The notes below the pieces were generated by a model. The model was not told the origin of the DNA and did no database searches. It saw only the letters and a program-made list of their open reading frames with translations. Below are positions 16,604 to 39,604 of a DNA stretch of 64,000 nucleotides, piece by piece. The DNA is from Chondrosia reniformis (Eukaryota > Porifera > Demospongiae > Chondrillida > Chondrillidae). The stretch is from contig OX359196.1 in the NCBI GenBank assembly GCA_947172415.1, forward strand, positions 5,953,901-6,017,900, read 5' to 3'. Position 1 is the first letter of the stretch. Every line of letters starts with the position of its first letter. The translations under genes were made by a program, and so were the position numbers.

Positions 16604-19438
16604 ATGGCGACGTACAAAGTGCAGCTAGCAGACGATGTAGATGGCGAATTGCAGGAACCCTTGCCCATAGGTAACTTTAGTCAAATCATCTACTACACTG
16701 ATACGTTAATAATGTTATTGTACTCCTTCAATCTAGTGAAGCAGGGAGGTTTAATTGGCTTGAAAAGATCTAATATGGAATACGGTTTGTACCACGGAAA
16801 CTTACCTAACACGAAGAAGAGACGATATTTAGTGAGTTATATTTATGAATTGTTTTCTAATCTGGGGGTGAATTCCTTTATCAAGTTCTCTTTAGTGTCT
16901 CATTTCTTTTATTGATTCAGATAGCCGAGCGGGGTAACCCTGGTGAAAAGATAATCCTCGCTGGTAGTAACTTCGGAGAAGCCTCCAAACAAACTGTTCC
17001 CTCTGCATGCAAGTGGGTCTTTTAATCAATGCCCTATGACTCTTCCTTTTTGAATCAATTTGCTCAATGCCCTATGATTCTTCCTTTTTGAATCAATTTG
17101 CTCAATGCCCTATGACTCTTTCTTTTTGAATCAATTTGCTCAATGCCCTATGACTCTTTCTTTTTGAATCAATTTGCTCAATGCCCTATGACTCTTCCTT
17201 TTTGAATCAATTTGCTCAATGCCCTATGACTCTTCCTTTTTGAATCAATTTGCTCAATGCCCTATGACTCTTCCTTTTTGAATCAATTTGCTCAATGCCC
17301 TATGACTCTTCCTTTTTGAATCAATTTGCTCAATGCCCTATGACTCTTTCTTTTTCCCCCTTTTTTCCTAGGTATTTGTTGGGCGTGAGGAGCAAATCCA
17401 CTCGAACATTACAAGTGTATCGGTCCCAGTTATTTAATGTGAGACCAATTTTAGAAGGTTTGTGTGCATTTTTATGTTAAAAATTTTAATGCGTCCATCC
17501 TCCTTTTTCCGTCTAGATGAAGAAATAGCTGATGTTAACAAAGATAAGACTTTTATGGAGAAAGTTGTTCAAATAACAGAATCCTTTGGAAGTGAGAAGA
17601 AGAAACGAGCAGTTGTAACAATTCAGAGAAATAGACTCGACAGTTCCATGCTTAATGAAACCATTGTGCCAGCCATCCAGCACGCAGAAAACCAAAGCAA
17701 GAGTGAAGCAGGTTTGTATACTACTTTAGACTTTATTGGGCATGTGACTACCGTGTGACTATCCCATTCAAGGTTTATTTTAGGGGGGCAGGGGAAAGGG
17801 GCATTGTAGTAGAGTGCCACCTCAAAATTTTGCCATATTGTATTCCAACCGCTTGTGATATTTCTAAGAGAAACCCTGCCATGGCAAATGTATTTTAAAT
17901 ATTTACATCTGTTAGATAATGTTGTCATGGATACACTCCACATTCCACCATGCAACAAGGAAGCAGAAAAAGCAAGTGATGTCTATAAGCTAGCAGATAG
18001 TATCCTTGAGATCTTCCCTGCTGGATACTTTATATATGCAGTTAATCGCAACTGAATTTAGAACATTCAATTTGTGGTGTAGTTTTGTAGAATTTATTGT
18101 CCTTAGCTTTAAAAGTTGTATCAGACAGTGAACTTGAGGCTCTGAATGAGCTGGCACAGACTGCCTTGTCTCAAGTTTACAAGGAAGCTAAAGAATGGAA
18201 AAAAGAGAAAAAGTTAGTAGTACTATCATTTATGCACAAGTTATGATCAAACAATTGCACTTATCGCTATGAATTATGGAGTCTTCTCTACAGGTATCCT
18301 GATGTAGTCATCAGTCAGCTGAAACTGCTAGCTGGGAGTTCAAGAAAATTGAACCAACTCCACAAAGCAAGATGTCTCCTATATAGTTCATGCCTTATGC
18401 ACTTGTATAAACTAGATGGAAAGGATCTTAGAAATAAGGGTACTTAACATATACATATGTTTCTACTCACTGTATATCTAAATAGTAATGTTAAAAAGTA
18501 GTAAAATTTGCTAGTTCAAGACTGGGATCATAATGTTAATATTTATATAAATATTAACTTGAACAGTATTGAAAAGCCTTTAATATTTGTATTAAATGCT
18601 TTCTGATAGGACCTCAGTTTTCAGATGATATTCCGTTGACTGTCAGAGAAAGTATCTTGTCAAAATATACAACTACAGCTCCTGGAAAAAATAAGAAGAT
18701 TTCAATGTCAAAACAGCAAAGAGACAGGGTGCTAAATTATCTTCTGGTGTTGTTATTGATAATCTTTGAGTATACCTTTGATTTTTCACTTCTAATGAGT
18801 GATCTCAAAGTCACCCAGCACAAGTTAGTACTAGTAACCTATTAAAGGTCTTGAATAAGGTGCAATTAAAATGGAGTCACTGGGCTGCATGTTACAGACT
18901 AAATTACCTATAGTTTGGGTGTTCTATTGGTACCTCATTTGGTCAGGGGTTACTCAATAACAGTATTCATGAGTAATTTAATTATATTCACAGTCTTTGA
19001 TTAGTAGCTGTGAATTATATTCATAGTTTTGAAAGAGTAAACTCCAACTGAAAGGGTTATATACGTACATATATGGTAATACTTGTATAATCATAGCTCT
19101 ATATATGATATAATGTATGTGGAATTGTATTAAAATTTAGTTCCCATGACCCTCCTATGAATTAAGTATTTATAATATTATATGTTATTGTTGTTGGTGT
19201 ATAGTATAATACTTGTGGTTTGATTATCAAAAAAATTGTAAGATTGCTAAAAAAAAGGATTTATATATGTATTACAATATCTTGTGTGACCAGGTTGAAG
19301 CTACACTTAAAAGCTCTTGGATGTAGTGTTGCCAGTAGAAGAGGAGCATCATCAGATACAATGCAACCCTGCACGGCCATTTTATCAATACCACTTGACT
19401 TTCCAAAGCCACAACACAAGAAACCCAAGGGAAATTGA
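16604..19438 (+). CDS. POLR1E: RNA polymerase I subunit A49/PAF53 (POLR1E)
   Basis: Ten exons: 16604-16670, 16737-16831, 16921-17012, 17372-17457, 17517-17711, 17916-17999, 18116-18212, 18294-18439, 18610-18823, 19294-19438; phase is kept at every junction and the product is 406 aa, close to the family length of about 420. The subunit pairs with A34.5/CAST in the Pol I dimerisation module and stimulates rRNA transcription in the nucleolus. The N-terminal half matches the family barrel: the GSNFG block, then a YLLGVRS strand and LQVYRSQLFNVRP (compare VYDAELFNMQP in vertebrates). The KKKRAV block, the LHIPPC-DVYKL block and the C-terminal winged-helix part (RCLLYSSCLMHLYK, then DFSLLMSDLKVT) follow in the expected order. 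An intron holds a 38-bp minisatellite. Recognised from sequence memory, not from a search. Confidence 0.9.
17024..17356 (+). repeat. Intronic minisatellite, 38-bp unit, about 8-9 copies
   Basis: Tandem copies of a 38-bp unit (AATCAATTTGCTC, then AATGCCCTATGACTC, then a T-rich end) fill nearly all of POLR1E intron 3 (17013-17371). Copies are almost identical, varying mainly C/T in the pyrimidine run. The array's own pyrimidine-rich end runs into the polypyrimidine tract of the 3' splice site. Confidence 0.95.
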
Positions 19439-19767: not shown

Positions 19768-22700
19768 TCAGACATCAATAGTGGATTTTTCGGAATCATG
19801 TTCAAAAGGTTGGGGCAGCCCACTCTGAAAGTTATCTTTATTTTTGTTATCATAGTGACCAACATAGCTATTTTGGTAATGAGGATAATGATTGTCATCC
19901 ATCAGTGGATGAGATGACGGTAAATAAAAACTATCATCAAAGGTGGGCATTTCAGGATGGTAACTTTCATGCCTTGCCAATGCAGCTAAGGACACTTGTG
20001 GAGAAACTGCTGTGACACCATGACTCTTATGTGACTGATGGCTTGGTGAGTGAGAAGGTAGTCCTGTGTATCTCTGAGGTATTTGACGGCTGTCAGACAT
20101 TTCTTCATAATCTGGAACATCTCCTTCCAAGCCTTGTGTTGGAGAAACAAAGGTTTTCTTCTTAGACCTTGGGCTTTCAAAGAAATACCTACTTCCCTGA
20201 CCCGGAGGGCTTCTAGCAACTCTTTCAGCAACATGTCTACCTGGTGATCTGACGCCTTCTGCAGCATGTCTATTTGGTGATCTGATGCCTTCCGCAGCAT
20301 GTCTACTTGGTGATCTGACGCCTTCTGTAACATGTCTACTTGGTGATCTGACGCCTTCTGTAACATGTCTACTTGGTGATCTGACGCCTTCTGCAGCATG
20401 TCTATTTGGTGATCTGATGCCTTCTGCAGCATGTCTACTTGGTGATCTGACGCCTTCTGTAACATGTCTACTTGGTGATCTGACGCCTTCTGTAACATGT
20501 CTACTTGGTGATCTGACGCCATCTACATGATGTCTATGGGGAGACCTTGGTGGTTCGTGCATTAGCCTAGGATAGCTTCCAAAGGTATCTTCCTCTGCAA
20601 AGCTGGGAGGACTCAGTGAAGCCTCTGTATGTCTGGGACTTATGCGAGGTGAATGATTATCAACCAGTCTAGCAGGAATCCTCAAAGTTGGGACACTGTC
20701 TTCAAGCCCGTTTTGGAGCTGTTTTGGATTCTCTCCAACTTGTTGTGTGACAGTCTGAAGACTCAAAGGACTACGGCCTTCATTTGTCCCATTTTTGTGA
20801 CTGCTATTTTGTTGTGGAAATGCTTGCTTCTTAGTCTTCCTAATAGAGCTTGGTGGGTGGGAACCTCCTGGTCTAGAGGGCAGATGTCTTGTGGGGGACC
20901 ACGGTTGGATGCCATGGGGCGGATGGGGCAGATAATTAGGATAGTGACGATTGTTGTGAGGATAGTTACCCTTAGGTCTCCAAGGAGGTGTATTATAAGT
21001 GGGTGTGTGATGATGTCTATTAGTCTTGTAATTCAATGTGTCATCAGTGACTACTGAGAGGTGTTCCGTTCCAGCCTCCTCCTCCACGCCTCCCTGGACA
21101 GTCACATCACCGTAGCGATTTTCTACAGCACTGCTCACAACACTTGTTGAGGAGCTAGGAGGTTCCATTAACCAGTATGGCTCTGATAACAACTGTGAGA
21201 GCCCAAGAGTGCGATCATCGGTATCTACGGAAGGTTTCATGCGAACAGCCTCCTCCCAGTAATCATTTGGTGTCACATGAGCTGCAGAGAGCGATTTTAG
21301 CATGTCAACAGGCTGTACAGGTGATGCTTCATGTCTCTTATCATGAACATCACTTTCTTCATTGCCTTGGTTGGAATTAGTCAGGTCTTCCAAAGAAGGA
21401 GAGAGCACACCGGCCTGGGAATCTCTGATTCTAAGGGGATCCATAACACTAGCTTCAGTCGATGTGATTGAGTCTCGATTTGTTGAATGTACCTTCCTAA
21501 TTAGTGCCCTAGAGGGAGGTCTATGATGGGATGTTGCATTTAGGGAGGAGCTGCCTTCAGAAAGAGGCAAGGTAGACTCATCTGAGTAGCAGTCTTTGAT
21601 ATCAGTTGAGCTTCCCTCTGGAAGAGGCATATCACTATGGAAACCAGTTTCAGCTGACGTATTTGAATGGTCATGAAAATGGTAGGCTTCATGGAGAGAA
21701 GGTGACTCAATGGAGGCCTGGATCATATGGAATACCTCGTTCCCTGAATGACGTCTCTTTTCTTCCTCTTCAGGATGTGTTTCTCCGTATTCGTCATTAT
21801 AGGCCACAACACTAGCAGTTTCATGGCCCAAACTGCTGTTACTGTTGACAGTGAATATCCTCTTGTATTTCCTGTACCGGACGCAACAACAGCAGACAAT
21901 CAGTAAGACGATAGCAGAGACAAGTAAAACACTAACTGCTGTTGGAATGCCAATAATGAGATATATAATAAAGGATTCATCCTGAGTGTTACATTGGCCA
22001 GCATCAGACAAAGCTTTGACTGAATGAGAGATATTAGTCAATTGTTGTTGAGATTCACTGAGAGATAGCTTTATGTGATTAACAGTTAAGTCCTTTAGAC
22101 ATCCCTTGAAAGGCGATAGGTTTTTTATTATTGTGTTTGACATTTTGATTTCGTCACTCCTATCTATGGGTAACCCACCAATAAACAGCAAAGAAGAATG
22201 GACAACAATGCTTTCCAAATCATTAATCCTAGTTGAGGAACCTGAACTTCCTCCAGATGTACATGTTACAATGTTGTCCTTCTGTGTGACAGTCACTTGA
22301 TGCAAGCTGCCATCAGAAACAGGATTGGATAAAACAATACGTCTTAGAAATTCTGGTGAACTTAATGAAATGTAGTAATTCAATTTTCCTTCTTCAAGCT
22401 ATAAATGGAAGGAGAATAATAAGACATGTTTTGGCTAATGGAACAAAAAATATATCAGGTACAAACAGCTGGTTTTACAGTACATACTACTAGTAAGTAG
22501 TGCCACTAAAGTGTCTTATGTATATAGTTATCCACTCTATGCTAATGTGATCTAAAACAGCACCATCTCATTAACCTCACTAGCTATGGACTGTGCCTGA
22601 TAACTTACAAAAATGCAGACTGTGCTTACAGATCTAAGATGCCTACAATAACTAAGTAACTGACCTCCAAAAATACACCAGGTGATGCAGATACCAGTGG

Positions 22701-30260: not shown

Positions 30261-33200
30261 TCAGTTGAGCTTATCAGGTAAAAATTCAATGTAGTTGTAG
30301 GGAACTAGTCCTGACTCTCCATTAACTAAATTGGCTTGGTACCATCCATCTTCTTCTGTCTGGACAACTAAGGGAAATAACATATACGTACGTACTTACT
30401 ATGATAGGTGTGCTAGTTGCTATGATAGGTGTGCTAGTTACTATGATAGGTGTGCTAGTTGCTATGATAAATGTGCTAGTTGCTATGATAGGTGTGCTAG
30501 TTGCTATGATAAATGTGCTAGTTGCTATGATAGGTGTGCTAGTTACTATGATAGGTGTGCTAGTTGCTATGATAGGTGTGCTAGTTGCTATGATAGGTGT
30601 GCTAGTTACTATGATAGGTGTGCTAGTTGCTATGATAGGTGTGCTAGTTGCTATGATAGGTGTGCTAGTTGCTATGATAGGTGTGCTAGTTGCTATGATA
30701 GGTGTGCTAGTTGCTATGATAGGTGTGCTAGTTGCTATGATAGGTGTGCTAGTTGCATGATAGGTGCGCTAGTTGCTATGATAGGTGTGCTAGTTGCTAT
30801 GATAGGTGTGCTAGTTGCTATGATAGGTGTGCTAGTTGCATGATAGGTGCGCTAGTTGCTATGATAGGTGTGCTAGTTGCTATGATAAATGTGCTAGTTG
30901 CTATGATAGGTGTGCTAGTTGCTATGATAAATGTGCTAGTTGCTATGATAGGTGTGCTAGTTGCTATGATAGGTGCGCTAGTTGCTATGATAGGTGTGCT
31001 AGTTGCTATGATAGGTGTGCTAGTTGCTATGATAGGTGTGCTAGTTGCTATGATAGGTGTGCTAGTTGCTATGATAGGTGTGCTAGTTGCTATGATAGGT
31101 GTGCTAGTTGCTATGATAGGTGTGCTAGTTGCTATGATAGGTGTGCTAGTTACTATGATAGGTGTGCTAGTTGCTATGATAAATGTGCTAGTTGCTATGA
31201 TAGGTGTGCTAGTTGCTATGATAAATGTGCTAGTTGCTATGATAGGTGTGCTAGTTGCTATGATAAATGTGCTAGTTGCTATGATAGGTGTGCTAGTTAC
31301 TATGATAGGTGTGCTAGTTGCTATGATAGGTGTGCTAGTTGCTATGATAGGTGTGCTAGTTACTATGATAGGTGTGCTAGTTGCTATGATAGGTGTGCTA
31401 GTTGCTATGATAGGTGTGCTAGTTGCTATGATAGGTGTGCTAGTTGCTATGATAGGTGTGCTAGTTGCTATGATAGGTGTGCTAGTTGCATGATAGGTGC
31501 GCTAGTTGCTATGATAGGTGTGCTAGTTGCTATGATAGGTGTGCTAGTTGCTATGATAGGTGTGCTAGTTGCATGATAGGTGCGCTAGTTGCTATGATAG
31601 GTGTGCTAGTTGCTATGATAAATGTGCTAGTTGCTATGATAGGTGTGCTAGTTGCTATGATAGGTGTGCTAGTTGCTATGATAGGTGTGCTAGTTGCATG
31701 ATAGGTGCGCTAGTTGCTATGATAGGTGTGCTAGTTGCTATGATAGGTGTGCTAGTTGCTATGATAGGTGTGCTAGTTGCATGATAGGTGCGCTAGTTGC
31801 TATGATAGGTGTGCTAGTTGCTATGATAAATGTGCTAGTTGCATGATAGGTGCGCTAGTTGCTATGATAGGTGTGCTAGTTGCTATGATAGGTGTGCTAG
31901 TTGCTATGATAGGTGTGCTAGTTGCATGATAGGTGCGCTAGTTGCTATGATAGGTGTGCTAGTTGCTATGATAGGTGTGCTAGTTGCTATGATAGGTGTG
32001 CTAGTTGCTATGATAGGTGTGCTAGTTGCATGATAGGTGCGCTAGTTGCTATGATAGGTGTGCTAGTTGCTATGATAGGTGTGCTAGTTGCTATGATAAA
32101 TGTGCTAGTTGCTATGATAGGTGCGCTAGTTGCTATGATAGGTGTGCTAGTTGCTATGATAGGTGTGCTAGTTGCTATGATAGGTGTGCTAGTTGCATGA
32201 TAGGTGCGCTAGTTGCTATGATAGGTGTGCTAGTTGCTATGATAAATGTGCTAGTTGCTATGATAGGTGTGCTAGTTGCTATGATAAATGTGCTAGTTGC
32301 TATGATAGGTGTGCTAGTTGCTATGATAGGTGCGCTAGTTGCTATGATAGGTGTGCTAGTTGCTATGATAGGTGTGCTAGTTGCTATGATAGGTGTGCTA
32401 GTTGCTATGATAGGTGTGCTAGTTGCTATGATAGGTGCGCTAGTTGCTATGATAGGTGTGCTAGTTGCTATGATAGGTGTGCTAGTTGCTATGATAGGTG
32501 TGCTAGTTGCTATGATAGGTGTGCTAGTTGCTATGATAGGTGTGCTAGTTGCTATGATAAATGTGCTAGTTGCTGCACATACCATTGAGAAGAACATCTC
32601 CTTTCCTAAAAGTCAGTTCAGCAGGATCATCAGAAGTACAATCAAACACAGCCTTTGCCTTTTTCCCCTCACTCTTCCACATTTCTTTGAAGCGTTCATC
32701 TTCTCCAGGAACAGATGCTTCCTTTAGGAGCTCCTCGGAGTTACTGTTGCTATAGTGTGCCTTATTGTCCTTTGTTTCAGGTAGATTCTGTTCTGTAGCA
32801 CTCTTCTCTTGAAGTTTGTTTTCTCTCGAAATATTGAAGCCTAGAGAATACAAGGAGACAGTGATGAACAGTCAGACAAGATGTACAAACTAGCTGCCTT
32901 ACTTCCAGTTGACGTCCTTGGTTTTGCCTGCAGGATTGGTGGCTTCTTAGACACTTTACCAGGACCATTAGCAGCAGAATTGCCTTCTGTGAGTGATCCC
33001 CGCTTCCCCTTTGGTCCATCTGGTGGGGGAGGAGGCGGTCTACTTGGGGGTGGGTAGGAGGGCATCCGGGTAACATCTCCACCTTCAGGTGTCTTCTTCT
33101 TGGAAAACTGTGGTGATTGCTGCAGGCTTCCTGCTCGTTGGAGGGGTAGCTCATCCCCGCTTGGGAGGGAAGATGAAGTTCCTGTTTTCTTTAAAATGGC

Positions 33201-36200
33201 AGGTGAAGACTGCTCACTAGGGTCCCTTATACCCTCAAACATCTACAAAAATAAATAGAATACACAGACTTTGCATCAAAATTGATAAGCCACAGCAGCA
33301 ATAGTAGTAGCACATGGAAGCATTGCACAGAAAAGTAAATTTGAAGTTTAAAATCTTATTTCCAACTGGTAAATTGACAGAGAAAAAGTGCACGATTTCA
33401 GCACTGCAGAACCGACATGTACATACATGAGCACTTTCTGTTTTATAGGCTTACATTTACCTCATCAACATGATCAATGAGAACTTCTACAACTTTGTTC
33501 TGATGCTTCAGGTCAATAATGGTTGCCACTGTTTCTCGTTCTGGCCTCATTAAAGTAGGCCCAAAGCAGACAGCAAGATTACTTGGCTTCATGAAATTCT
33601 TATCTGAATGACTGGAAACCCTGAAAAGCATAAAGAATACTTACTGCATATACACAAGTGAAGTGTTACAGAGAGGCTGTTATGCAATTCCCAAAATTGA
33701 TCAGGTGCAACATATAAAGACCAACTTCAAGCTTTGCAACCTACAAGCCTCAAACTGTTTTATTTTGTGTGGAATTATGTTGTGCATGTACACATGGAAC
33801 TAATCTGAAGACTCTTGCATAAAACAGGTAGAATACATACGTACATATGTGTACACCTCTACGGGCCATATTTGGAACACCTCTATGGACTGTATTGGAC
33901 GACCTCTATGGGCCATATTTGGCATGTAGAGTTTTTCAATAAATTTAGGTCAACTGAAGAGTGAAGGTAAAACAGATGTTGCTTCAATACAATTGTCTCG
34001 TAACTATTCAAAAATACATCAATATTGCTCAATAGGATAATTTACATCAGTAAGTGACCTTTTAGTAGTATACTAGACTTTAACATTTAGTCAACATTGT
34101 GATCTTACATACAATACAAGATGATGAATAATAAATTCAGTTTAGTTTGGTACACATTACAAGTCTACAAAATGGGCCAGTCACAGATGGGCCAGTCAAA
34201 CAGCCGTATAAGGTACCATAACTCACTTTGCTAAATGATTCACCAGTAGTTTGAGGACCTCCTGGTTGAGAGTTGGAAGAGAGACAATCAAATCTTTAAT
34301 GGACTCTCTCCTTTTCCCCTCATCATTCACTTCTACAGTGTAGATACAAGAAAAATGGCTGACAGGACCCACCACAGAAAAAGGAACCATCATGATAGGA
34401 CTTACTAGCTGCCTCAATGAAACTGTTGTGGAGGTCAAAGGTCAGCAGTGGCTCTGATAGTTGTTTGCTATGGAGAAAGAGAACCACATTAATGGTATGT
34501 AGGGCAGTATTGGGTAGGGTGGGAGGGAGGTGGGGCGACATTGGGTAGGGTGGGATGGAGGTGGGGCGACATTGGGTAGGGTGGGATGGAGGTGGGGCGG
34601 CATTGGGTAGGGTGGGATGGAGGTGGGGCGGCATTGGGTAGGGTGGGATGGAGGTGGGGCGACATTGGGTAGGGTGGGATGGAGGTGGGGCGACATTGGG
34701 TAGGGTGGGATGGAGGTGGGGCGGCATTGGGTAGGGTGGGATGGAGGTGGGGCGGCATTGGGTAGGGTGGGATGGAGGTGGGATGGACATTGGGTAGGGT
34801 GGGATGGAGGTGGGGCGACATTGGGTAGGGTGGGATGGAGGTGGGGCGACATTGGGTAGGGTGGGATGGAGGTGGGGCGACATTGGGATGGAGGTGGGGC
34901 GGCATTGGGTAGGGTGGGATGGAGGTGGGGCGGCATTGGGTAGGGTGGGATGGAGGTGGGGCGACATTGGGTAGGGTGGGATGGATGGACATTGGGTAGG
35001 GTGGGATGGAGGTGGGGCGACATTGGGTAGGGTGGGATGGAGGTGGGGCGACATTGGGTAGGGTGGGATGGAGGTGGGGCGACATTGGGTAGGGTGGGAT
35101 GGAGGTGGGGCGACATTGGGTAGGGTGGGATGGAGGTGGGGCGACATTGGGTAGGGTGGGATGGAGGTGGGGCAGCATTGGGTAGGGTGGGATGGAGGTG
35201 GGGCAGCATTGGGTAGGGTGGGATGGAGGTGGGGCAGGATGGATACTTAATATACATAAGTAAGATGTACATATGTAATAACTGAGATAGGATACATATC
35301 AAGCAGGTGCATGCATGTACATAACTGGAAATACACACCTAAAGTAGTACTTGATGGCGCTGCAAATTATGTGAATATCCCATTCATTTGGGTCATCTAG
35401 GTTTGGTGGAAACTGCTTTCCTTTTGAAAGAAAAGAAAAGTTCCAAACTTGAAAGTATGGAATTGTGTATGTATGCTTTGAGTACCAATGGCATCTTTCA
35501 TTAGTTTTATGGCCCTGTTGACCTGTCCTGGCTTTCTGTACACACCTTCCTCATCCAAACCTCTCTCTTCAACAATATCAATAAACTTCTTAATTCCATT
35601 AACAGCAGCAAGTGTCAGTACTCCAGCTGGAAATGCGGATAGTTGTGGGAAGTGGAGAGGCGGGGGAAGTGGAGAGGCGGGGGAAGTGAAGAGGCGGGGG
35701 AAGTGGAGAGGCGGGGGAAGTGGAGAGGCAGGGGAAGTGGAGAGGCGGGGGAAGTGGAGAGGCGGGGGAAGTGGAGAGGCGGGGGAAGTGGAGAGGCGGG
35801 GGAAGTGGAGAGGCGGGGGAAGTGGAGAGGCGGGGGAAGTGGAGAGGCGGGGGAAGTGGAGAGGCGGGGGAAGTGGAGAGGCGGGGGAAGTGGAGAGGCG
35901 GGGAAAGTGGATAGGTGGAGGAAGTGGAGAGGTGAAGAGGAGATGTGATGAATGGTGAATGGATTAGGGTATATGTACATACGTACATTTATCCGAACGG
36001 GTAGGCATTACTGCATACACCTGGTACAATAAAGAAGGGAACATCACTATTAAATATTTGTAAAACTAAAAGGTATACAAGTTATGAGACTTACTGGTTC
36101 TTTTCCTTCCATTGCATCCATCCATTTCCCTCTGTCATTATTTGATATTGCTTGCACGACAACCTTCTTTGTGGTTCCTTCTGACCTAAAATAATGAGCC

Positions 36201-39200
36201 ACGAGTAATTTAAAACACCATTTCCTACATATGTACTATGTCTAATATATAGTTAAAGGCCTATAGGGACTGACACCTAGTGATAGCTTTGGATAAGGAT
36301 ACAAGAGTCTTTATTCTTCTACTCCACTGGGCCAGACAACTGTTTCTGGGAATACCTCCCTTCCTTAGTGAGTGACTGACCTTGGGAGCCTTTCTATAAG
36401 CTCTTCTTTGAATCCTTAGATCCAATGCATTGAACACCTCCATATTGTTTGTATATATGTGAACATACACAGCATAGTAAATGTGATAAACAAAGTTTAA
36501 AACTAACTGGTTAGGAATCAGCTCAATTTCCATGCAAAACTTTCTGTCCACCTCATCATGTTTGCTTCTGATGCAGCTCTTCACTAGCATAAAGTCTTTC
36601 TACACAAGAAATACATTCCAAAAGTGGTAGCAACAAAGCTGCAAGTGAAACAGATTAACGTACACAGAATTGTCCTTTGCCATCTACTGATATCAATCTC
36701 AACAGTCCAGACTCCTGAGGTCTCTTCTTGAACTGTGCAAAGTACCTCACCCAGCTGGACTGCGCCAGAACACCGATTCCAATTCTCCTCTCATGTACCA
36801 TCAGGTGCCCTTGTATTTTGTAGTCAGGGTGCTGGGAGAGCATCTCCTGGGCCTTGGTCAACACCTGGGTCTTTAAATCATACCGTTTCTTTGTTCCCTC
36901 CAAATACACATCTCTCAGCTATAGATACAACAGATAATTGCTTACTCTGGTCTTCCCAGAAATATATGGTATGTGTAGCTAGCTTACCAGTTGCACCTTA
37001 TGCTGGACCCTATCTACAAATGGCTTCAAACTTGATGTTGTATCGTAGGCTTGGTGGAAGAATGTAGTTATGTCACTAAAGTAACCTATTATCTACACAA
37101 TTGGAAACATTGGATGTCAGTCAATCAAACCACAAGTTGTTCATATCTAAAGATGGATGAATGGTAGGAGGGTGCTAATTAATTGGGGGTAATTCCCCTC
37201 TACCAGCATGTCTCCAATGCTTAGGTAAAATAGAATAAGGGACACTGGGATGTTGCCCATTTAATGAATGATACACTCCAAACTGTGTAGATATGTGTAC
37301 ATACGTATCTATACGTACAACAACAAGTTTACATATAACTTTAATAGGTGCAAATGTGGACTACATTAGTCTAATGTACGTAAGAGCTTGTGGTACATTC
37401 ATATATGTACGTGTCATATAAATGCATGTCCATGTACTAATAATTGCCAACAGACCACCTCTTTCACTTACCTAATAGATTTTCTGTTATACTGATTGTG
37501 TATTTTTATTGTACAGTGTTCTCAGTAGGGGGTGTGGTGGGCTAACAGTGTTCTCAGGGGGTGTGGTGGGCTAACAGTGTTCTCAGTGGGTGTGGTGGGC
37601 TTACAGTGTTCTCAGTAGGGGGTGTGGTGGGCTAACAGTGTTCTCAGGGGGTGTGGTGGGCTAACAGTGTTCTCAGGGGGTGTGGTGGGCTTACAGTGTT
37701 CTCAGTAGGGGGTGTGGTGGGCTAACAGTGTTCTCAGGGGGTGTGGTGGGCTAACAGTGTTCTCAGCAGGGGGTGTGGTGGGCTAACAGTGTTCTCAGTA
37801 GGGGGTGTGGTGGGCTTACTGGTTCCATGAGTTCATACTGCTTCTGGGAGTGAATGTCCTGCATCAGACACACATACTGGAAGGCTGTCTGCTGGAAAGC
37901 TCCGTACTCCTTGACAGGCATCTCATCCTATGAGGTCACATACAGAGAAGTCAACCTTCAAGTGCTCAGACAAGATCTCACTAGAAATGTGTTCCACTCA
38001 CTTCTACAACTCTATCTCCCTTTCTAGATCCCTGGGAAAGTATCTTCTCCAAGGACTGGTAGTACTTCTCTGATGCCTTTTCATATTTCTTTCTTGCCTC
38101 CTAGCAACCAATTACATCAACAATTCCAATTCTACACATACAATTAATACTGGTTGCTAGTGTATTTGTAAGGTTACCTTGCACTCTTGTATGTTGTCCT
38201 TTCTGAATGCTTCTAAATTTCTGACCAATCGATGGGTCATGGTTGTGATCTAAAACAGGTGACAGAACAGCACATAAAATAGAGCAAAGTGAACAAGAGG
38301 CGGCCACACACCAAAGCAGCCCTCGATTCTTCAATGATCTGTAGGGTATCTGAGAATTTTTGCAGTGATTCAACTGTAGGGGGCAGGGCAAGGGAGGTGA
38401 AAGGTTATTTAAGTCATGTGACTATCACATGGGTGGTTACCAAGCAGCTGTTCATCTTCTGATTTTTCACTGCCTTCTGTCTCAAAGGAGAACTTTCCCA
38501 CAGCAGCGGCAAATGACTTTTGAGCATTGGAGTATTCTAGTCAATAAATCCAAACAGTCAATTATTGAAAGAATGCAAGTACATACATACGTATTTACTG
38601 AATAAACTGTACATCACACGAGTATATATTATGAGTAACAACCCAAAACATGTACATAAGGTGGCATTCCACTGATGAAGTTCCGTGGACCGAAACGCCA
38701 TTAAATTCTTGTTTCATAACACTACGGAAGCCCAACAATTAACCGTTATTTATTCAACGTAGCGATGAACCTCTACTCTATCATGTACATAGAGGGAACT
38801 GAAAATGGAATAAATCACAATTTGGATCTAACACTTATACTCATATAGTACATACATATCTGCCTCTAATATACGTATGCTGTATTCTAATAAGAGCCAA
38901 TCCCTATACACACTACGTAATCTTTAGCATAACCTATCTATAGCAAATCATATAATTAAGGTTACATCCATTTTCAATATGACCTCTACGCATAACATCT
39001 ACATATATAGGCATACTATATAGAGCATAGAAAGTCAGTGCATAAAATATGCAAATATCCAATAGAAACTTTTAAGAAGTGAAAAACAGTGAATATGACT
39101 AACTATAACAACAGCAACAGAGGTCAAATACTTCACACACATACACAAACACTCATACACTCACACACACACCATTCCATTACATTCTTTCCCTAATCCT

Positions 39201-39604
39201 CATAAGGATGTACATACACACATACACACATACTCACACACACACTCACACACACTCACACACACTCACACACACACATACGTACGCATATACGTATGTA
39301 TGCACACATCATATACAAATATTAATTTCTTATAATAGTACTGAATATTCACTTGGTTGCAATAGCCAGATAGCTCCAAATATCCCTAAATTTCGTTAGT
39401 ACATATTTCTACATACATACATGATATAGTGTCAATATATGTGTACCTACCTTCAGTAGCTTGTATCATCCTCTGACACTCCTTAAGCAGAGCCTTTAAA
39501 CCTTCTGAATTACTCTTCAGTTCCTTCTCATAGATGGCAATGTTTTCTCTGAAGGTTGGGCTGTCGAGGTAACACTCTAGATATTCCAGGGGAGGAAGAC
39601 CCAT
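30261..39604 (-). CDS. GRAF-family BAR-PH-RhoGAP-SH3 protein
   Basis: Nineteen exons, all phase-consistent, giving 807 aa (GRAF1/ARHGAP26 is about 760-815): 39604-39451, 38536-38441, 38373-38312, 38249-38178, 38100-38002, 37927-37820, 37092-36988, 36918-36664, 36599-36508, 36185-36095, 36020-35987, 35626-35486, 35420-35339, 34467-34406, 34332-34227, 33620-33461, 33242-32903, 32840-32583, 30367-30261. The start MGLPPLEYLECYLDSP matches GRAF/oligophrenin N-termini. Domains in order: BAR (1-240), PH (260-375), RhoGAP (390-570) with arginine finger in EGVYRKPG and the PSNLAVCFGPTLMRP block, proline-rich linker, C-terminal SH3 (EDGWYQANLVNG, PYNYIEFL). The family inactivates RhoA/Cdc42 at curved endocytic membranes. 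Having an SH3 favours GRAF over oligophrenin, which lacks one. Four introns are filled with different minisatellites. Confidence 0.93.
30399..32574 (+). repeat. 21-bp minisatellite, about 104 copies, filling an intron
   Basis: Tandem array of CTATGATAGGTGTGCTAGTTG occupying nearly all of the last intron of the GRAF-like gene (30368-32582): it begins about 10 bp inside the 5' splice site and ends about 30 bp from the 3' one. Variants are ATAAATG for ATAGGTG, GTTAC for GTTGC, GGTGCGC for GGTGTGC, and a 20-bp unit lacking one T (TTGCATGATAGG). Because 21 is divisible by 3, long meaningless open frames appear on both strands. Confidence 0.98.
34503..35246 (+). repeat. 31-bp G-rich minisatellite, about 24 copies
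   Basis: Tandem array of a 31-bp unit (GGTAGGGTGGGATGGAGG, then TGGGGCGACATTG) in GRAF-like intron 34468-35338. Each unit has at least five G runs on the plus strand. Shortened units occur near 34780, 34885 and 34985. The gene is on the minus strand, so the transcript is C-rich and the template strand is G-rich. Confidence 0.97.
35644..35935 (+). repeat. 17-bp purine-rich minisatellite, about 17 copies
   Basis: Near-perfect tandem copies of GGGGGAAGTGGAGAGGC in GRAF-like intron 35627-35986, with decay at the right end. The plus strand is all purine apart from one T and one C per unit. Confidence 0.97.
36254..36423 (+). repeat. Dispersed short repeat, copy B
   Basis: Near full-length copy of the repeat at 14676-14840, inserted across the end of GRAF-like intron 36186-36507 and antisense to that gene. 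Shares the start AAAGGCCTATAGGG, the core CCACTGGGCCAGACA and the end AATCCTTAGATCC. Confidence 0.75.
37513..37815 (+). repeat. 29/32-bp minisatellite, about 10 copies
   Basis: Tandem units AGTGTTCTCAG(TAG)GGGGTGTGGTGGGCTAAC in GRAF-like intron 37093-37819. Units alternate between a form with an extra TAG (32 bp) and one without (29 bp). The last unit ends with the gene's own 5' splice site (GTAAGC on the minus strand); internal units carry GTAAGC or GTTAGC at the same place. Confidence 0.95.
38661..38701 (+). other. Hammerhead-core-like motif in an intron
   Basis: TGGC, then CACTGATGAAG, then a short stem with GTCC-type pairing (TTCC/GGAC), then CGAAAC and GCCA, the outer TGGC/GCCA being complementary. 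The motif CACTGAWGAAG-stem-CGAAACG is shared with the centre of the foldback at 29405-29571. It contains the CUGANGA and GAAA boxes of hammerhead ribozymes but has an extra A before stem II and no visible stem I. Confidence 0.5.
39131..39306 (+). repeat. CA-rich microsatellite
   Basis: Interrupted (CA)n/(ACTC)n simple repeat ending in TACGTATGTATGC, within GRAF-like intron 38537-39450. Confidence 0.9.

Follow-up and report, generated by a model that had tools for sequence, protein, structure and literature searches.

Why should a single gene carry four large, mutually unrelated minisatellites in four of its introns, with every exon intact? The question is raised by a GRAF/OPHN1-type RhoGAP gene in the kidney sponge Chondrosia reniformis, whose coding sequence spans 30261..39604 on the minus strand of the stretch analyzed here (the window: 64,000 nucleotides of chromosome 8, C8:5953901-6017900, in a genome of 117.4 Mb in 15 contigs). 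We believe the most likely answer, at a probability of roughly 0.85, to be that these are four independent minisatellites which grew in place by tandem duplication, in a genome where minisatellites are frequent and clustered, and that no function is needed to account for them.

The exon model of the GRAF-like gene comprises 19 exons with a frame that remains open from the ATG at 39604 to the stop at 30261. The donor of intron 17 was shifted by 3 bases in this model to give the 807-amino-acid product used for the Pfam scan, which returned matches to BAR_3 (7e-55), PH (0.005), RhoGAP (2e-38) and SH3 (5e-10). The PH match falls under its curated cut-off (17.8 vs 25.1 bits), yet it is correctly placed, and the domain order of BAR, PH, RhoGAP and SH3 is that of the GRAF/OPHN1 RhoGAP family. 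Short introns of 62-77 bp make up ten of the 18. Introns 18, 13, 11 and 6 measure 2215, 871, 360 and 727 bp, respectively; all four have GT-AG boundaries and the exons are unbroken.

Each of these four introns contains a different array, as detected by Tandem Repeats Finder. Intron 18 (30368..32582, minus strand) holds array 1 (30399..32574), 104.1 copies of a 21-bp unit with 94% matches, in which the 104 units fall into five main variants and a 14-unit block occurs repeatedly. Intron 13 (34468..35338, minus strand) holds array 2 (34509..35235), about 23 copies of a 31-bp unit that is best described by Tandem Repeats Finder as 62 bp x 12. Intron 11 (35627..35986, minus strand) holds array 3 (35647..35932), 16.8 copies of a 17-bp unit that is C-rich on the sense strand. 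Intron 6 (37093..37819, minus strand) holds array 4 (37512..37819; the Tandem Repeats Finder call is 37512-37816), ten copies of a 29/32-bp unit from the donor GT onward, with a 90-bp higher-order period at 97%. All four arrays score at least 530. Their head-to-tail units in about 10 to 104 copies, their variant repeats, block duplication or higher-order period, and the locus-specificity of the units are characteristic of minisatellites, and arrays 1 and 4 show modest to good signs of internal block duplication. A small array with a unit of about 23 bp in about three copies is also present in intron 15 (33844..33922). The observation that one gene has a different array in each of four introns, which came from an earlier sequence-only reading, was reproduced with coordinates exact to the base, the same units and intact exons; the accompanying statement that no other gene in the window has more than one array is true at a score of at least 200.

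To establish where the units occur, similarity searches were run against the genome, leaving out very common words. The unit of array 1 had no match elsewhere, and arrays 2, 3 and 4 matched only arrays of 68-79% similarity, at four, ten and one places, respectively. A common origin of the four units was rejected because the arrays did not match one another in these searches. The same results bear on whether the arrays were brought in by transposition, or are relics of mobile or intron-generating elements. The length of the array introns (360-2215 bp) beside the short introns of the same gene would suit such an origin, but no dispersed family containing the array units was found in the genome similarity searches, and the four arrays lack the pattern of one unit at many loci that marks introners and transposons. 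We consider this origin very improbable. In-place growth of independent minisatellites would instead proceed by replication slippage, unequal exchange or break repair within introns. Selection, which we infer, would remove those expansions that disrupt the reading frame or splice signals and tolerate the others, and this on its own would make the arrays look confined to introns.

To gauge how common arrays are, we sampled the genome in 25 stretches, each of 10 kb, whose positions were fixed rather than random (1.0 Mb on 14 contigs and 4.5 Mb on 11); seven satellite-rich stretches were set aside before counting, leaving 18 stretches, or 180 kb. Counting arrays with a period of 10-100 and a score of at least 200, these stretches held 13, of which three scored at least 500, compared with six and five in the window. 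Introns were predicted by a small hidden Markov model gene finder that was trained on the window and then self-trained, with arrays masked in its input. It recovers most exons of the GRAF-like gene, which was its training gene, and its intron counts are rough, as masked arrays were overlaid with introns and one intron of a POLR1E-like gene was drawn unlike our reading by eye. Outside the GRAF-like gene, 12 of 182 predicted introns carry an array scoring at least 200 (one of the 12 was judged exonic on reading) and 1 of 182 carries one scoring at least 500.

Arrays in this genome also cluster. Around 12 loci, selected because their sequences resemble arrays 2 and 3, a total of 38.0 kb contains 12 additional arrays scoring at least 200, a density of 3.2 per 10 kb vs 0.72 in the samples. 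Three arrays lie within 8 kb in one sampled stretch (L014). The closest parallel to the GRAF-like gene is an aconitase gene in L032 (C9:208550-211700), in which arrays with 26-, 45- and 67-bp units lie between exons and one with a 23-bp unit adjoins another exon. The 26-bp array sits between the exons covering profile positions 320-406 and 407-433, and the 45- and 67-bp arrays, further on, are both purine-rich, the latter scoring 194; at least two introns of this gene hold arrays. Genes with several different arrays thus recur in this sponge genome, while the large size of all four in the GRAF-like gene remains unusual. The sequence-only reading had proposed that its observation would be refuted if most genes of this genome carried several such arrays. 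Arrays proved frequent and clustered, which goes part of the way toward that refutation, but four large arrays in one gene were seen in none of the other stretches that we read.

Several points weigh against four independent, functionless arrays. If introns are independent, the probability of at least four of 18 introns carrying an array of the large class (score at least 500) is 2.6e-6, or 1.7e-7 when calculated by intron bases; at a score of at least 200 the corresponding values are 0.027 per intron and 0.0024 by intron bases. Clustering weakens this improbability, but the clustering figure covers arrays scoring at least 200 and not the large-size class. In addition, 8 of the 12 clustering loci, which account for 10 of the 12 additional arrays, are less than 1.2 Mb from a chromosome end, compared with 2.14 Mb for the GRAF-like gene, so clustering at the position of this gene may be overstated. 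In array 1, the signal of block duplication is modest, as 14 of 1000 shuffles matched its block repeat. Finally, the comparison covers one haplotype, one individual and one species (the alternate haplotype assembly is GCA_947172445.1). The bias toward chromosome ends extends to the arrays we listed, 21 of 31 of which lie within 1.2 Mb of an end (28% expected, P 5e-6); this list is the listed first part of 186 pattern matches (up to C10) plus similarity hits, merged by eye. At its distance from the end, the GRAF-like gene does not have the position of subtelomeric hypervariable minisatellites.

Long tandem arrays can be misassembled, and the sequence-only reading had named an assembly artefact as an outcome that would undo its observation. 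The Chondrosia reniformis assembly was made from PacBio HiFi reads and its primary assembly has a reported quality value (QV) of 69.8 (PMC12181767). At an average of about 13 kb (10.31 Gb in 0.80 million reads; PMC12181767), the reads greatly exceed the 2.2-kb array in length, and the variant units are well resolved. Given these figures, we assign next to no weight to an artefact.

The arrays had also been described as at least partly bounded by splice sites. The distances from array edge to the 5' and 3' splice sites are 8 and 31 bp for array 1, 103 and 41 bp for array 2, and 54 and 20 bp for array 3. Under uniform placement, the P values are 0.43, 0.57 and 0.55 for arrays 1-3 and 0.017 for array 4, with a combined value of 0.14. 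The description is strictly correct for array 4, which reaches the donor, and does not apply to the other three, whose edges lie at chance-like distances. Introns 18 and 11 seem splice-bounded because only 39 bp (60 bp with one unit) and 74 bp remain without the array, which is about as long as the common introns of this gene, at 62-77 bp.

In array 4, copy 1 opens with the donor GTAAG, and 10 of 10 copies hold GTAAG or GTTAG. These donor-like sites occur at offsets of 0, 32, 64, 93, 125, 154, 183, 215, 244 and 273 bp and score 6.0-8.7 bits (one at 8.7, two at 8.3 and seven at 6.0); the reference donors (n=213), a rough and partly self-trained set, have quartiles of 5.7, 7.4 and 8.6 bits. The sense-strand junctions read CCA/GTAAG at the first copy and CT/GTACAA past the last, so GTA stands in both places and may have served the founding duplication. 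That duplication probably began on the donor GTA, which would account for the copying of the donor into every unit of array 4.

It could be proposed from array 4 that 5' splice sites are the preferred starting points of arrays, so that units carry the donor and introns grow inward from it. Array 4 begins at the donor and all ten of its copies score as donors, as this proposal would have it. By eye, two arrays in the sampled stretches (L008:7100-7290 and L009:2921-3072, with 5.2 and 2.9 copies) also seem to begin in an exon and copy the exon-intron junction, their units seemingly spanning the exon end and donor. Donor scores inside these two arrays are weak, however, reaching at most 4.2, and three of the four arrays in the GRAF-like gene lie at chance distances from splice sites. 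Genome-wide, the donor motif was not enriched in tandem units, with 186 GGTAAGT tandem triples vs 242 in the reversed control, in a test that tallied overlapping matches rather than arrays and in which a few large arrays weigh heavily. We regard preferential nucleation at donors as unlikely. The related suggestion that splice-site sequence is recruited into the repeat unit is borne out by array 4, whose unit contains the donor, but not as a rule.

The four arrays might instead be functional regulators of splicing or length in the GRAF-like gene, as reported for VNTR6-1 in TERT intron 6. Intronic variable number tandem repeats (VNTRs) can alter splicing (PMC11830802), and intron 6 of the GRAF-like gene presents ten competing donors. 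Splicing at any of the nine downstream donors is computed to result in a premature stop; these sites could therefore matter only as competitors, and the choice of donor would control the amount of good mRNA. Against this, the four units are unrelated to each other, similar arrays occur in unrelated genes, and in 125-nt pieces RNA pairing between arrays was no better than in shuffled sequence. RNA bridging between arrays of different introns was rejected, as no pair of different arrays beat the shuffled sequence in these pieces. Self-pairing is the only pairing seen for array 1 (z -9.5) and is explained by short palindromes within its unit. All four arrays are C-rich and G-poor on the sense strand (other predicted introns: C 0.17, G 0.18). 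A C-rich sense strand as a general rule was rejected, with 11 C-rich and 4 G-rich arrays among 15 predicted intronic arrays scoring at least 200 in the samples and window (20224-20536 dropped) and a sign test that was not significant. The array adjoining an aconitase exon (L032:415-627) is G-rich in sense, as are arrays in L035 and L038 if their predicted strands are correct. Our search for function thus found no inter-array pairing, no common unit and no strand bias consistent across genes, and we consider a regulatory role for the arrays improbable.

A narrower proposal can be made for array 4, namely that a duplication begun on the donor produced a natural ladder with ten 5' splice sites, from which the exon-proximal copy must be picked. 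The weaker GTTAG in seven of the nine decoys would then reflect selection against competition, and copy number would tune the share of transcripts that are mis-spliced and decayed. We hold this to be unlikely. If it were true, and if junction duplication occurred in many genes, such arrays would form a natural set of cases in which to study how, among near-identical donors, the first is chosen.

The sequence-only reading had suggested that arrays expand only within introns. In the window, a 33-bp array of 9.5 copies (20224..20536, minus strand) lies in-frame within an open reading frame at 19768-22398 encoding a laminin-G-domain protein, with the same frame on both sides; it is apparently on the cytoplasmic side of the protein. 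At L031:498-3146 (C8:216800-219950), an open reading frame of 882 codons with a tudor domain passes through 24-, 30- and 18-bp arrays in 1.2 kb. The sequence between these three arrays is also open, and a 28-bp array lies just upstream in a predicted intron. As the open frames continue through and between them, the arrays at 20224-20536 and L031 are probably exonic, and confinement to introns appears not to hold, an exception that is probable rather than proven. Contrary to the exonic assignment, the gene finder, with arrays masked, placed introns over both sets of arrays. The units of all four open-frame arrays are multiples of 3 in length, compared with 2 of 8 intronic arrays (P 0.06), a contrast that is partly circular as the open frame defined the exonic class. 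Unit variation in the open-frame arrays gave 18 non-synonymous vs 2 synonymous of 20 single-base codon changes, with no constraint seen.

The window also contains one more large intronic array, with a 38-bp unit (17026..17355), in a plus-strand POLR1E (RPA49)-like gene (RNA_pol_I_A49, 5e-18). By eye its intron spans 17010-17371, of which about 32 bp are not array; the gene finder gave a wider one, 16967-17516. The last copy of the array extends into the polypyrimidine tract. Among the sampled stretches, a satellite of about 170 bp (340-bp dimers, 76-94% identity) occurs in L003, L005, L010, L013 and L015, five of the 14 stretches at 1.0 Mb. A degenerate 13-bp satellite, possibly centromeric, occurs at 70-72% identity in L017, L018 and L025 (4.5 Mb on chromosomes 1, 3 and 6). 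L002 (C6:407057-410291) holds an array of about 2 kb whose unit, about 28 bp long, is rich in CCACACCCC; it lies about 0.4 Mb from the chromosome end.

Comparable systems have been reported. Human MUC2 is a direct precedent for the GRAF-like gene, in that a single gene contains many minisatellites: at a Tandem Repeats Finder score >300, seven lie in introns and two in exons; eight minisatellites had no similarity to known ones and copy number reached 115 (PMC2065792). MUC2 differs in being subtelomeric and in that 6 of 8 minisatellites were shown to be polymorphic (PMC2065792), whereas the GRAF-like gene is far from the end and known from one haplotype. Human minisatellites concentrate near chromosome ends (PMC2065792), a feature shared by the listed Chondrosia arrays. 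Minisatellites in a sponge intron are already published: the ATP synthase beta intron of Leucetta chagosensis has population-specific minisatellite repeats (PMC2267160). That case concerns a single intron, treated as indels for phylogeography, and the available portion of the paper describes no multi-array gene. Our own literature search, which was limited and covered few subscription journals, found no description of a multi-array sponge gene. Like the GRAF-like gene, human TERT has more than one intronic minisatellite, with VNTR6-1 and VNTR6-2 (38 and 36 bp) in intron 6; an effect on splicing was demonstrated there by deletion (PMC11830802), whereas the GRAF-like arrays are not known to have one. 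Given MUC2, Leucetta and TERT, array variability and an effect on splicing are both possible for the GRAF-like gene. CeRep25B of C. elegans is an intronic minisatellite near splice decisions (PMC4039745), but it is a named family recurring across genes, unlike the locus-specific and mutually unrelated arrays here. Intron gain or change by tandem duplication (PMC4974935, PMC2809761) is similar to array 4 in that the duplication takes in a splice site; it differs in that array 4 creates no new intron and its first donor presumably still serves.

Taken together, the data indicate that in a chromosome-level sponge genome, locus-specific minisatellites that are frequent and clustered fill near-minimal introns and leave the exons intact. 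They also provide a warning about base rates, in that an array-rich intron in Chondrosia reniformis is not evidence of function. Array 4 itself offers a ready test of how one of ten near-identical tandem 5' splice sites is selected ahead of a single acceptor.

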